From Arthrobacter antibioticus (lineage in GTDB: Bacteria > Actinomycetota > Actinomycetes > Actinomycetales > Micrococcaceae), in contig NZ_JASISQ010000008.1 of the NCBI RefSeq assembly GCF_030063205.1, positions 1 through 64,000 of the forward strand: a stretch of DNA of 64,000 nucleotides, written 5' to 3'. The position numbers and the translations under genes were made by a program. Under the pieces are notes generated by a model. The model saw only the letters and a list, made by a program, of their open reading frames with translations. It was not told the origin of the DNA and did no database searches. Below are positions 35,636 to 46,176 of this stretch, one piece after another; positions within the stretch are counted from its first letter, which is position 1; the number at the start of each line of letters is the position of its first letter.

Positions 35636-36121
35636 ATGACCACTCCTTATCGGATCATGACCGTTTGTACCGGCAATATCTGCCGCTCCCCTATGGCCGA
35701 ATACATGTTGGTCAGCGCCGCAACAGAGGCTGGCCTGGATCTCGAGATTGATTCCTGCGGGACTACGGCATGGGAGGTTGGGAACGCGATTGACCCGCGC
35801 GCCAAAGCACTCTTGGCGCGCCACGCCATTGAGAGCAGTGACCATCGTGCTCGGGCATTTAATCCTAGTTGGTTCGCCGAACGGGACCTCATCCTGGCCC
35901 TAGACATAGACCACTTCCAAGCTCTGCGGGCGCTTGCCCCGGACGCAGCTGCAGCCGCCAAGATCCGCATGCTGCGCTCCTTCGATCCGGCGTTGTCCGG
36001 CGCCAAACCCAAACAACAGGGCATCTACGATCCTTGGTTTGGGGACGCGAAGGACTTTCAGGTCAGCTGGGATCTGATTGCGGCAGCAATTCCAGGTATT
36101 TTGGCACACACTCGTGGCTAG
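35636..36121 (+). CDS. Low-molecular-weight protein-tyrosine phosphatase
   Basis: A 161-residue phosphatase. The P-loop VCTGNICRSP contains the nucleophile C11 and R17 (CX5R), and the general-acid loop reads YDPWFGDAKDF with the essential Asp. These match the LMW-PTP family, related to mycobacterial PtpA. It should dephosphorylate tyrosine phosphates, but the substrate is unknown. No tyrosine kinase lies nearby. The start is ATG 35636 behind a leaderless-type box. The next gene starts eight bases before its stop, so the two are probably co-translated. Confidence 0.92.
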   Translation: MTTPYRIMTVCTGNICRSPMAEYMLVSAATEAGLDLEIDSCGTTAWEVGNAIDPRAKALLARHAIESSDHRARAFNPSWFAERDLILALDIDHFQALRALAPDAAAAAKIRMLRSFDPALSGAKPKQQGIYDPWFGDAKDFQVSWDLIAAAIPGILAHTRG

Positions 36122-38261
36122 TACCCCACGGCCTGTCATCATCGCCATTGACGGCCGCTCCGGTGCGGGAAAAACTACCGTGGCGGTGGAGCTGGCCGCA
36201 CTACTGCGCCGCCATAGGGCCGTGTCGTTGTTTCATCTGGAAGACATCTACCCGGGGTGGGATGGCTTGGCCGGCGGCGTGCAGCGCTACATCGACTCCG
36301 TTCTGCGCCCCTTGCACCAGGGCCTGCCCGCTACCTGGACCGCGTGGGATTGGGAGTCCAAGAACGACGGCGCCCCGCGCACCACCGCCGTGGCCCCGGT
36401 GGTGCTCGTGGAGGGTGTGGGTTCCTCGCATGGGAAGGCTGCCGAGTTCCTCGACGCGATCATTTGGGTTGATGCTCCCGGCTTGGTTCGCAAGCAACGC
36501 GCTTTGGCCCGTGACGGGGACATCTATGCGCCTTTCTGGGATATTTGGGCCGAGCAGGAGGAACGGCTGCTGGAGCAGGATGCAGGTGAGAGCGCGTCAG
36601 CTGCTGTGGCCGACATTATTATTGACGGCACCCACGGCGTCGCTGACGCACCTCCGGTGGTTCTTCAGGCGCTCTCAACTCTTCCCGCCATGGAGCATGT
36701 GCTGGGGCCCGAACTTGCACGCCGCCGCGGCCTGGACTTTTCAGTAGTTTGCCTTGACGGTCTGCCACCTGCCGCTATCCTCTTTGACGTACTCTATGGC
36801 AACGCACAAAACGCCGTGTGGCTGGACAGTTCCGACTCCGCCACGGATAAGCAAGCGGCCTCCCGTTCACGGTTTTCAGTCATGGCCGATGATTCCGGTT
36901 GCTTCGGCCAGCTCGCCCGCCATGAGCATGGTGTGACAACTGTGTTGGCCAGTCAGGTTACAACCCGTATTGGCGGCCCCTTCTTCCAGTGGCTGGATTC
37001 TGTCTGGGGGAGAAAAGCTGTGCGGGCCCCATCGCATTACCCCGGTGATTTCACCCTGGGCTGGCTAGGTTATCTGGGCTACGACCTCAAAGCTGAAACC
37101 GGCGGTTGCGCGTCCCCCACCCCAAGGAGCGCCACGCCCTCTGATGACATGCCCTCTGATGACACTGCCCCTGGCGTGACTGTCCCCGCAGCGGCTTTGC
37201 TCTTTGCCGGCCGCGCCGTGGTTCTTGACCATCTACAAGACTGCCTTTACGTTTTGACGCTGACAAGCCCCCACCAGCCTGGCTCCACCCAAGAATCAGC
37301 GGACTTTTGCGCCAGGGTCCGTACGGCCCTTGCCGCCGCAAGGGCCGCCGCACCCAACGAACCTGGCCAGTCGGCGTCGTCCGTCTGTGGAGCCGCGCCG
37401 CAGTTCACAATCCGTGACGGGGAACTGCGCTACAAGTCGATGATCGCCGCCGCGAAAGCTGAAATTCACGACGGCAACAGCTATGAAATTTGCCTGACCA
37501 CCCAGTTGGAGGCCCGCTTACCGCTCAGAATGGCGCCCTTGAGCACCTATGCAGCGTTGCGAAAGCGGAACCCAACACCGTTTTCGGCCTTTCTGCGCCT
37601 CGGCACAATGAGTGTTTGCAGCACCTCCCCCGAACGTTTTCTGCGCATTGACTCTGAGGGACTCATGCGCGCCGAACCCATCAAGGGCACGCGCCGCCGC
37701 GATGCAGATCCGGAGCTGGACGCCGCGCTCAAGGAAGATCTGGGCGTCTCGGAGAAAGACAGGGCGGAGAACATCATGATCGTGGATCTGCTCCGGAACG
37801 ACCTCTCCCGCTTCGCCATCCCGCAATCCCTGACAGTCCCGCGCCTGTGCCAGATCGAAACTTACGCCACCGTGCACCAGATGGTCAGCACCATCGAAGC
37901 CCGGCTGGCCCCCGGAAGTTCGCGGGCACAAGCCGTTGCCGCAGCATTCCCGGCCGGTTCAATGACGGGCGCCCCCAAAATCAGCACCATGGCCATCCTT
38001 GACGCGCTCGAGGCCGGGACCCGCGGGATCTATTCGGGCGCCATTGGCTACTTTTCGCTTAACGCGGCCACCGATCTCTCTGTTGTGATCCGTACGCTAA
38101 TCTTGCAGGACACGCACGACGGCGGCACGCACCTTTCCCTGGGTATCGGCGGCGCCATTACGGCTGACTCCCAGGACGAGGCAGAGTGGCAGGAGATCCA
38201 GGCCAAAGCCCATGGCGTCCTGTCTACGTTGGGCTCAACCTTTCCTGCGCACCATTGTTGA
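36114..38261 (+). CDS. pabB: P-loop (uridine kinase-like) domain fused to aminodeoxychorismate synthase component I
   Basis: A 715-residue fusion. The first about 195 residues form a P-loop kinase-like domain (GRSGAGKT at 14-21, then HLEDIYPGWDGLAGG, resembling uridine kinase-type proteins). From about 225 on is a chorismate-binding PabB domain, which aminates chorismate to ADC using ammonia from PabA. Active-site segments are EPIKGTRRR near 521, DLLRNDLSR and GSMTGAPK near 615. GTG 36114 overlaps the phosphatase stop by eight bases. TTG 36078 would start inside that gene. A PabA partner is not in view. PabC lies 2.3 kb downstream. The role of the kinase domain is unknown. Confidence 0.9.
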   Translation: MASTPRPVIIAIDGRSGAGKTTVAVELAALLRRHRAVSLFHLEDIYPGWDGLAGGVQRYIDSVLRPLHQGLPATWTAWDWESKNDGAPRTTAVAPVVLVEGVGSSHGKAAEFLDAIIWVDAPGLVRKQRALARDGDIYAPFWDIWAEQEERLLEQDAGESASAAVADIIIDGTHGVADAPPVVLQALSTLPAMEHVLGPELARRRGLDFSVVCLDGLPPAAILFDVLYGNAQNAVWLDSSDSATDKQAASRSRFSVMADDSGCFGQLARHEHGVTTVLASQVTTRIGGPFFQWLDSVWGRKAVRAPSHYPGDFTLGWLGYLGYDLKAETGGCASPTPRSATPSDDMPSDDTAPGVTVPAAALLFAGRAVVLDHLQDCLYVLTLTSPHQPGSTQESADFCARVRTALAAARAAAPNEPGQSASSVCGAAPQFTIRDGELRYKSMIAAAKAEIHDGNSYEICLTTQLEARLPLRMAPLSTYAALRKRNPTPFSAFLRLGTMSVCSTSPERFLRIDSEGLMRAEPIKGTRRRDADPELDAALKEDLGVSEKDRAENIMIVDLLRNDLSRFAIPQSLTVPRLCQIETYATVHQMVSTIEARLAPGSSRAQAVAAAFPAGSMTGAPKISTMAILDALEAGTRGIYSGAIGYFSLNAATDLSVVIRTLILQDTHDGGTHLSLGIGGAITADSQDEAEWQEIQAKAHGVLSTLGSTFPAHHC

Positions 38262-44401: not shown

Positions 44402-45934
44402 CTAGTCCTGGAAGTACTCGATCTCAGCACCCACTGTGTTCAGCCGCTCGGCTAGGTCTTCATAGCCGCGTTCAATGACGTATATGTTGCGTAACTCGGA
44501 GGTGCCCTTCGCAGCGAGCATAGCCAGTAATATGCAGGCCGCAGGGCGCAGGGCCGGGGGACAGCCGATTTCTGCGGCGCGCCATGCGGTGGGTCCGGTG
44601 ATGTCAATCCGGTGTGGATCCAGCAGGCGGACACCTGCCCCCAAACGGTTCAACTCCGTCAAATAGATGGCCCGGCCCTCGTAGACCCAGTCATGGATCA
44701 AGGTGGTGCCCTCTGCGCAGGAAGCAATGACGGCAAAGAACGGTAGATTATCTATGTTCAGGCCGGGGAAGGGCATGGGGTGGATCTTATCCGGGGCGGC
44801 CACCAGATCAGAGGGCAAAGTGGTGATGTCTACTAGACGTGTTTTGCCGTTGCGAGCCATGTACTCGGCAGATTTCAGGTAGTGGAACCCCATCTGCTCC
44901 AGCACCTTCAGTTCGATTTCCATGAATTCGATGGGTACGCGCGTTACCGTCACCTTTGACTTTGTCACGATGCCGGCAGTAATCAGGCTCATGGCCTCGA
45001 TGGGGTCCTCAGAAGGTGCGTATTCAATATCAATATCAATCCGGGCCTTGCCGGTGATGGTCAACGTGGTGGAGCCAACGCCCTCAACTTGCACTCCCAA
45101 ACCCTGGAGATAAAAGCATAGATCCTGCACCATATAGTTGGGGCTGGCATTGCGGATGACTGTTTTGCTTTCCCGGTGGGCAGCCGCCATGATGGCATTT
45201 TCCGTCACTGTGTCACCCCGCTCGGTTAACACAAAGGTCCTGTCCTCGCTGTCACTGAACGGGGCCTGTACTTGGTAGAACCCGTCGTGGGCATTGACCG
45301 TGAGCCCAAACTCTCGAAGTGCCTGCATATGCGGTTCAACCGTGCGCGTGCCAAGGTCGCAGCCTCCGGCGTACGGGATACGGTAAGAGTTTTCTTCATC
45401 CAACAGCGGGCCCAGGAGCATGATGACACTGCGGGTGCGCTTCGCTGCTGCGATGTCCATAGAAGCCAAGTCCAGCATGGCGGGACGGCGGATTCGCAGG
45501 TCGTTGTCTTCCAGCCACGTGCATTCAACGCCGATGGAGGTCAGCAACTCAACAATACGGTTGACTTCTTCAATGCGTGCCAGGCGCCGCAACGTGGTGG
45601 TTCCTCGGTTGATTAGACTGGCACAGAGCAGGGCCACACCTGCATTCTTGCTGGTATTAACCTCAACACTGCCAGAGAGTTCACGTCCACCATGAACCCG
45701 CAGGTGTGTCACGGCGTTCTTGCTTGCCGCACCAACGTTAAAGAGATTTGCTTCCAGCAGCGTCTCCATTCGCTGGATCATTTTTAGACTCAAGTTCTGC
45801 TTGCCTTGTTCCATCCGGGCTACAGCACTTTGGCTAGTTCCCAGCTGGGTGGCCAGTTCCCCTTGGGTCCAGCCTTTTTCGGCTCGCGCATCTCGGAGCA
45901 ATACGCCAACGGTTTCTGCAGCCATTTGAGTCAT
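44402..45934 (-). CDS. XRE helix-turn-helix fused to MurA-like enolpyruvyltransferase
   Basis: A 510-residue fusion. Residues about 8-65 form an XRE DNA-binding domain (LLRDARAEKGWTQGELATQLGTSQSAVARMEQG). Residues about 75-510 match the EPSP/MurA inverse-barrel. K96-N97 in NTSKNAGV correspond to the MurA K22-N23, and GGCDLG places a cysteine (C192) where MurA has its loop C115. The region where MurA has DMQAQ is instead GLNIDNLPFF, so a catalytic Asp may be missing. It could be a PEP/UDP-GlcNAc-responsive regulator, an enzyme with a DNA-binding domain, or both. An AT-rich palindrome-like stretch overlaps its start. Confidence 0.85.
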   Translation of the reverse strand: MTQMAAETVGVLLRDARAEKGWTQGELATQLGTSQSAVARMEQGKQNLSLKMIQRMETLLEANLFNVGAASKNAVTHLRVHGGRELSGSVEVNTSKNAGVALLCASLINRGTTTLRRLARIEEVNRIVELLTSIGVECTWLEDNDLRIRRPAMLDLASMDIAAAKRTRSVIMLLGPLLDEENSYRIPYAGGCDLGTRTVEPHMQALREFGLTVNAHDGFYQVQAPFSDSEDRTFVLTERGDTVTENAIMAAAHRESKTVIRNASPNYMVQDLCFYLQGLGVQVEGVGSTTLTITGKARIDIDIEYAPSEDPIEAMSLITAGIVTKSKVTVTRVPIEFMEIELKVLEQMGFHYLKSAEYMARNGKTRLVDITTLPSDLVAAPDKIHPMPFPGLNIDNLPFFAVIASCAEGTTLIHDWVYEGRAIYLTELNRLGAGVRLLDPHRIDITGPTAWRAAEIGCPPALRPAACILLAMLAAKGTSELRNIYVIERGYEDLAERLNTVGAEIEYFQD

Positions 45935-46176
45935 TATACTTTTATATCATAGGGTGCATATTTCCAAGGAATCAGATGACCTTTGGGGCAGTTTCGGGAC
46001 AATTCTGGACGATTTTGGACGATTCACGCCAAATTATTCGTCAAATAACCGTTTCATGCGATAATTTCCATGGCCGGATCAGCCAGCCTCGCAGCATTCC
46101 TCCACGTTACCCCCTCTGGAGATTTTTAGCTGAAACGGCAGGCTTGCCCACGGCGAGGCTGCACCGTGTTGACGCT
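45935..46176. promoter_or_regulatory. Promoter region of the XRE-MurA-like gene
   Basis: On the minus strand a TATGAT/TATAAA run (45941-45951) lies directly upstream of the ATG at 45934. The stretch ATTATACTTTTATATCAT is a loose palindrome that could be an autoregulatory operator for the XRE domain. Further right, GGACGATT occurs twice (46007-46026). I see no terminator for the ykoC gene that ends at 46177. Confidence 0.45.

Follow-up and report, generated by a model that had tools for sequence, protein, structure and literature searches.

In this work, we found a gene that encodes an XRE-type helix-turn-helix (HTH) domain fused to a MurA-like enolpyruvyl transferase in Arthrobacter antibioticus, within the 64,000-nt stretch of contig NZ_JASISQ010000008.1 analyzed here (hereafter the window). 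MurA commits the cell to peptidoglycan synthesis and is the target of fosfomycin. From comparisons of sequences and one predicted structure, the fusion appears to be an active MurA with a built-in autorepressor of its own promoter, a reading to which we give a probability of roughly three in four. We infer that the XRE domain, as a dimer, would bind a palindrome overlapping the −10 element of a leaderless promoter, that the bound dimer would block RNA polymerase and repress the fusion's own gene, and that MurA ligands may modulate the binding. With RNA polymerase blocked at its own promoter, the abundance of the enzyme would set its own transcription.

Architecture of the Fusion Protein

The features of the gene, the protein, and the promoter are listed in Table 1. 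The HTH_3 match in Pfam (residues 13–60) scored 44.3 bits against a cut-off of 23, and the EPSP_synthase match (residues 81–498) scored 147.5 bits against a cut-off of 22.8. Among the NCBIfam models, the MurA subfamily NF006873 gave 311.6 bits, above its cut-off of 297, and TIGR01072 (murA) gave 302.2 bits, under its equivalog cut-off of 392.7. The latter is the naming threshold for the canonical MurA branch, and because the score lies under it, the fusion is classed as a divergent MurA branch rather than a canonical equivalog. The AlphaFold2 model (25 sequences) has a pLDDT of 85.4 and a pTM of 0.79, with residues 67–74 below 50. When residues 75–510 of the model were aligned to MurA structures with VIA-align, the best match was 4e7g (Z 44.7, rmsd 2.1, 415 residues); the scores were lower for NikO (Z 39.5) and for EPSP synthases (Z at most 36.6). 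The open reading frame, Pfam, NCBIfam, and the fold model thus all bear out the initial annotation, which had described an XRE HTH fused to a full MurA-like domain. In a PHROGs search, the MurA part matched a family of unknown function and the HTH part matched assorted HTH families.

Table 1. Coordinates of the fusion gene, its domains and key residues, and its promoter elements (positions in the window).
Feature	Position	Strand	Remarks
XRE-MurA fusion gene	44402..45934	(-)	ATG start; single open frame; 510 codons + stop
HTH_3 (XRE) domain, residues 13–60	45755..45898	(-)	Pfam; helices 3–20, 24–31, 35–42, and 50–60 in the model
Recognition helix region, TSQSAVARMEQG	inside the HTH_3 domain, 45755..45898	(-)	
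MurA (inverse alpha/beta barrel) domain, residues 77–510	44405..45706	(-)	NCBIfam and PDB sequence matches, AlphaFold2 model, VIA-align
K96 (E. coli MurA K22)	45647..45649	(-)	K in 99/100 fusions, X in one
C192 (E. coli MurA C115)	45359..45361	(-)	C in 100/100 fusions
D395 (E. coli MurA D305), within the altered NIDN[LV]PF segment	44750..44752	(-)	D in 100/100 fusions
−10-like hexamer TATAAA	45941..45946	(-)	6 nt before ATG; overlaps the operator; predicted leaderless transcript
Degenerate operator copy, TATGCACCCTATGATATA	45943..45960	(-)	9 of 14 positions; right arm agrees at 6 of 7, left arm has drifted

No conserved operon partner was found in 35 fusion loci, based on mechanically taken open reading frames. 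The 14 largest groups of neighboring genes in these loci are confined to Micrococcaceae or Nocardioidaceae, one Micrococcaceae group also including one Brachybacterium locus. Elsewhere in the window (36078–38261, forward strand), inspection by eye suggested a P-loop kinase-like N-terminus joined to a PabB/anthranilate synthase-like chain.

Distribution and Phylogeny of the Fusion

At least 589 genomic stretches encode a relative of the fusion, and the best 80 of these include Arthrobacter, Pseudarthrobacter, Sinomonas, Brachybacterium, Nocardioides, Aeromicrobium, Mumia, and Streptomyces. The best named relatives have 90–93% identity to the fusion of the window. Among the 58 genomes that comprise A. 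antibioticus and its relatives, the fusion is present in 29 and the other 29 lack the gene; therefore, organisms with a canonical MurA can do without the fusion. When 248 genomes were drawn evenly from the phylum, 16 carried the fusion among the matches listed, all of them within the 37 genomes of the same class or nearer, and the fusion is absent, among the matches listed, from the 211 genomes outside the class. One of these 16 carriers (G171) has a frame-shifted fusion. The identity is 87–95% through the genus of the window and approximately 61–68% in more distant families, and a recent chimera or assembly fault was rejected on these grounds. Among the papers listed in our literature search, no description of an XRE-MurA fusion was found.

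For phylogenetic inference, a quick tree was built from 74 rows, namely, 34 fusions picked by lineage from the 100 distinct ones, 39 non-fusion MurAs, and E. coli MurA. The fusions form one group in this tree (SH-aLRT 100, quick method). The stem of the group is long (3.64) and drew a long-branch warning from the tool, so its sister group is unsure. These sequence comparisons indicate that the fusion is one branch of MurA that is old, slowly changing, and widespread in Actinomycetes.

Two placements stand out. In the quick tree, the Brachybacterium fusions (L045, L047, and L055) fall together with the Aeromicrobium rows, which may reflect horizontal transfer. Also, a record titled Sporosarcina beigongshangi REN13, a Firmicute, contains an Arthrobacter-type fusion with 93% identity (L005); this assembly is probably mislabeled or contaminated.

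Catalytic Residues

To compare residues, we made an alignment of 100 distinct fusions, 41 non-fusion MurAs, and the MurA of E. coli. Using E. coli numbering, N23, R91, C115, R120, H125, D231, D305, R331, L370, R371, and R397 are invariant in all 100 fusions. The residues that we take to be the catalytic set (K22, C115, R120, D305, R331, R371, and R397) are all retained, with one X at K22; these and the other aligned residues, such as Asp369, are assumed to have the roles known for MurA. Of the 41 non-fusion MurAs, 15 have D at the position of C115. The initial annotation was right that K96 and C192 are retained (K in 99 and C in 100 of the 100 fusions). It was also right that the segment of DMQAQ type is replaced, here reading NIDNLPF, but it overlooked Asp305 inside this segment, which is kept as D395.

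The differences are concentrated elsewhere. Position 369 is Pro with an adjacent inserted Ala in all 100 fusions and Asp in all 41 non-fusion MurAs, and positions 162, 163, and 188 are invariantly G, D, and N in the fusions, compared with S162 (41), V163 (38), and E188 (40) among the 41 non-fusion MurAs. Accordingly, the fusions lack Asp369 together with S162, V163, and E188, presumably markers of the active site and the nucleotide site. More broadly, positions 160–165, 188, and 190 hold other, invariant residues in the 100 fusions; positions 121 and 124 also differ, yet these vary among non-fusion MurAs as well. Catalysis by the fusion looks largely kept judging from its residues, and the kinetics or substrate preference may differ from those of the usual MurA because Asp369 and the nucleotide-site positions are replaced.

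Canonical MurA and Genomes in Which the Fusion Is the Only MurA Found

The genome of A. antibioticus is 3.79 Mb in size and 99.99% complete. A second MurA gene had been anticipated by the initial annotation for the case that the fusion is a regulator, and a canonical one was indeed found at C11:764617-765909 (421.2 bits for TIGR01072). The other TIGR01072 matches in this genome are the fusion (302.5 bits) and one weak match (23 bits). The MurA domain of the fusion and the canonical MurA share 25% identity. In six more distant genomes that have both genes, the identity to the proteins of A. antibioticus is 68–71% for the fusion domain and 68–70% for canonical MurA; in two nearer genomes with both, the corresponding values are 79–81% and 83–86%. 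The fusion domain thus diverges about as slowly as canonical MurA.

Some genomes have the fusion as the only MurA found. With TIGR01072 matches of at most 40 bits set aside, this was observed in G220 (single contig, 100% complete), G264, and G171, as well as in the drafts G044 (91% complete) and G048 (99% complete). Named loci led to 31 genomes; in 12 of these, the fusion stands alone (Mumia quercus, five of five Aeromicrobium, five of five Nocardioides, and Piscicoccus), and in the other 19 a canonical MurA is also present. We further sampled 80 genomes (at least 95% complete) from the family of G220, which we read as Nocardioidaceae because match coordinates coincide with those in the Mumia and Aeromicrobium genomes above. 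A fusion-type match to TIGR01072 (approximately 300 bits) is present in 79 of them (in two pieces in G361) and is the only match in 55, including 16 single-contig genomes; 24 of the 79 also have a MurA above the cut-off, and one genome (G406) has no TIGR01072 match at all. All six fusion-type genes fetched from this family search were confirmed by direct reading to have the HTH, and all six have the palindrome described below, one with one mismatch. These genome sets (the phylum draw, the TIGR01072 checks, the named-locus genomes, and the family sample) overlap, such that the counts are not additive. MurB was found above the cut-off in all 16 fusion-only genomes tested, so the MurA step must occur in fusion-only genomes, in which the fusion is the sole candidate seen.

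In 24 genomes of the same family (L217–L240), another MurA type (438–519 bits for TIGR01072) exists beside the fusion. Most of these MurAs outscore the canonical MurA of Arthrobacter, Brachybacterium, and Streptomyces (412–437 bits).

These results bear on what kind of protein the fusion is. The initial annotation had offered a regulator that senses through a retired enzyme, in which the MurA domain would be only the ligand sensor of a transcription factor, similar to BzdR. In its favor, a canonical MurA is also present in A. antibioticus and 19 of the 31 named-locus genomes, Asp369 and the nucleotide-site residues are replaced, and the score lies under the equivalog cut-off. However, fusion-only genomes with MurB exist, and the other catalytic residues are kept in the 100 fusions, including those from genomes with canonical MurA. 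Because the catalytic core is kept, the divergence is about as slow as that of canonical MurA, and the fusion is the sole profile-found MurA in many relatives, we disfavor the retired-enzyme idea and consider it very unlikely. Another alternative is an enolpyruvyl transferase that acts on a different sugar-nucleotide substrate and is not MurA. The invariant replacement of nucleotide-site residues and the long stem branch are consistent with this, but the fusion is the sole MurA candidate found in genomes that keep MurB, and the model fits MurA (Z 44.7) somewhat better than NikO (39.5) or EPSP synthases (at most 36.6), making this alternative highly improbable.

A Conserved Palindrome at the Promoter

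In the upstream DNA of 100 distinct fusion genes, we found a new, conserved promoter palindrome that extends into the −10 element of what is probably a leaderless promoter. The family consensus, located directly before the start, is TATCTCA-N4-TGAGATA or a worn form thereof, and its last TA is common to the −10-like hexamer. In 96 of the 100 genes, a hexamer of the form TANNN[TA] precedes a possible start by 5–8 nt (a raw count with no control), and no clear ribosome-binding site was recognized by eye upstream of the fusion genes. A leaderless promoter is predicted because of this hexamer near the start and the lack of a clear ribosome-binding site by eye.

For promoter counts, genes with less than 50% identity, short matches, and loci with scant upstream DNA were dropped, and identical genes were counted once. 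The recognition helix is intact in 119 of the 124 distinct genes that the loci provided. The palindrome reaches 13–14 of 14 positions in 54 of these 119 genes and at least 10 in 92, as scored with a consensus drawn from the same genes. For the background of 4,720 random windows from the same loci, none reaches 13, 30 reach at least 10, and 119 reach at least 9. A palindrome at the target promoter, as expected for an XRE regulator, is thus found for the family and in degenerate form in the genus of the window; we refer to it as a putative operator.

A whole-genome search for ATCTCA-N{3,5}-TGAGAT was conducted in 12 genomes. The exact N4 form was found upstream of the fusion in nine of these, none of which has another N4 copy; two of the nine have an N5 copy elsewhere. 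No exact operator core was found in G171 and G048 by this pattern search, and the fusion gene of G048 has an operator copy with one mismatch. In A. antibioticus, the search found three sites (one of them N4), none at the fusion gene.

It is also conceivable that the HTH activates the gene or has its main targets elsewhere. XRE proteins can activate, and the regulon was probed by pattern search alone. Yet the position of the operator, overlapping the −10-like hexamer and no more than approximately 30 bp from the start, is that of a repressor, and in nine genomes no second copy of the exact N4 core was found. We regard activation or other main targets as quite unlikely.

State of the Putative Operator in Arthrobacter

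In 22 distinct genes of the window's type (at least 86.9% identity), the place of the operator is occupied by TATGC...TGATATA, which agrees with the consensus at 9 of 14 positions, and the recognition helix TSQSAVARME is unchanged. The 9-of-14 copy in the window is unremarkable on its own, given that 119 of the 4,720 background windows score at least as high. When the genome of A. antibioticus was searched with the genus form of the motif, one perfect match (the fusion gene) and one with three mismatches were found; the reversed control gave one match. A regulon in this genome was rejected, with the three exact-pattern sites located away from the fusion and the genus form perfect only at the fusion.

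These observations allow another reading, in which the protein is an active MurA but its HTH has ceased to act on the fusion's own promoter in the genus of the window, and the conserved TGATATAAA would be nothing more than an extended −10 promoter. In all 22 window-type genes, the left arm departs from the consensus, and the kept motif resembles an extended −10. On the other hand, the helix is unchanged in the same 22 genes, the outer TAT and the right arm are kept, and the genus-form motif is perfect only at the fusion gene; we consider this reading unlikely, though deserving of serious attention. Given the divergence of the left arm and the chance that the right part is an extended −10, the case for autoregulation in A. 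antibioticus draws mainly on its relatives. The initial annotation's AT-rich, palindrome-like sequence at the start holds up insofar as an AT-rich −10 overlaps the site and the relatives have a clean palindrome, but the copy in the window is degenerate (9 of 14). Similarly, the evidence favors its proposal that the fusion is a second, active MurA and a repressor of its own gene, given the presence of canonical MurA and the family palindrome at the fusion's own promoter, with the qualification that the palindrome is degenerate in this genus.

Co-variation of the Helix and the Putative Operator

If the HTH and the palindrome form a pair, joint loss or change would be predicted, and two events of this kind were found. 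The first is in the genus of G171, which has five genomes; the P0001 search at E 1e-12 finds the fusion only. In G334, the helix TSQSAVARIEQG is kept and the palindrome has one mismatch. In the other four genomes, the helix is rewritten (e.g., MTGTDIEQIEAG) and the palindrome scores 6–8, which is the background level; a TACGAT hexamer is still found before the start. Compared with G334, two of the four rewritten-helix genes have 47% identity in the HTH and 81–83% in the MurA domain; the corresponding values for two other lineages are 89% and 84–85%. Three of the four genes are unbroken and retain their catalytic residues; in the remaining one (G171), a frameshift near residue 389 divides the gene. 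The second event is in Aeromicrobium sp. Root495, which has TTQSV in the helix and TATCGCA-N4-TGCGATA as the operator, with both arms changed alike. There are only two such events, but they agree with the prediction for an HTH-operator pair. Moreover, the subclade that lost the helix and the palindrome keeps its MurA domain, which is the opposite of what a sensor-only role of this domain predicts.

The rewritten-helix, palindrome-less subclade, with the MurA domain kept, corresponds to the loci L137 (G171), L213, L214, and L215. A programmed frameshift in G171 was not supported, as G332, G333, and G335 of the same genus have a single open frame.

Comparison With Known Systems

BirA, NadR, and PutA are bifunctional enzyme-regulators, each with an active enzyme and a fused DNA-binding domain that controls transcription. 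By analogy, the fusion would be like these proteins in kind, and there is sequence evidence for each half of an enzyme and repressor in one chain of the BirA/NadR type. Unlike the fusion, for which the sole recognized site is at its own promoter, BirA, NadR, and PutA belong to other pathways and control other genes or operons. Canonical MurA (TIGR01072) shares the fold and the core catalytic residues with the fusion, but it has no HTH and keeps Asp369 and the usual nucleotide-site residues. BzdR has an XRE HTH located N-terminal to a metabolic-enzyme fold, as in the fusion, with a shikimate kinase-like fold in BzdR (PMC3602430). The enzyme of BzdR is dead and senses benzoyl-CoA (PMC3602430), whereas the active site of the fusion appears largely kept, and many genomes yielded no MurA other than the fusion. 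The loss of ancestral catalytic residues that characterizes a retired enzyme of this type was not found in the fusions, in which the core set is kept with Asp369 as the exception.

An extension of the active, autorepressing MurA is a ligand-gated trigger enzyme. The substrate- or UDP-MurNAc-bound state would alter the affinity of the HTH, peptidoglycan flux would set transcription, and the changed nucleotide site would be an adaptation for sensing. We advance this extension tentatively, at somewhat less than even odds.

In 7 of 12 named Streptomycetaceae loci, a divergent open reading frame with an aconitase motif lies upstream of the fusion, no farther than 4 kb away; five of the seven are within approximately 1.3 kb and two are nearer 4 kb. 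SCO5998 is next to SCO5999 acnA, a DmdR1 site is predicted in the interval that separates SCO5998 from acnA, and SCO5998/MurA2 is described as one of a pair of UDP-GlcNAc transferases (PMC12161575). Based on gene neighborhood rather than the sequence of SCO5998, Streptomyces MurA2/SCO5998 is very probably an ortholog of the fusion. SCO5998/MurA2 is reported to have a SigB-dependent promoter (PMC8346170), BldM-WhiI is reported to bind the murA2 promoter of S. venezuelae (sven5810, vnz_28735; PMC4125116), and overexpression of MurA2 is reported not to have reproduced the whiI phenotype (PMC11005364). In the excerpts consulted, MurA2/SCO5998 is treated as a UDP-GlcNAc transferase or a cell-wall enzyme, with no mention of an HTH or a self-operator (PMC12161575, PMC8346170, PMC11005364, PMC4125116).

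At the Streptomyces buecherae locus (L068, 6927–10106), a siderophore-type binding protein-like gene and two permease-like genes were recognized by eye downstream of the fusion. These genes recall the predicted iron-regulator site at SCO5998.

Biological Implications

In A. antibioticus, the fusion would serve as an additional MurA alongside the canonical enzyme, and its operator would be a weakened one. A large actinobacterial group that includes Streptomyces has a MurA with a fused HTH and what appears to be a dedicated promoter palindrome. If the proposed explanation is true, the fusion would be a direct genetic circuit that ties the enzyme level, and perhaps the precursor flux, to cell-wall synthesis, and the MurA2 of Streptomyces would be more than a spare copy.
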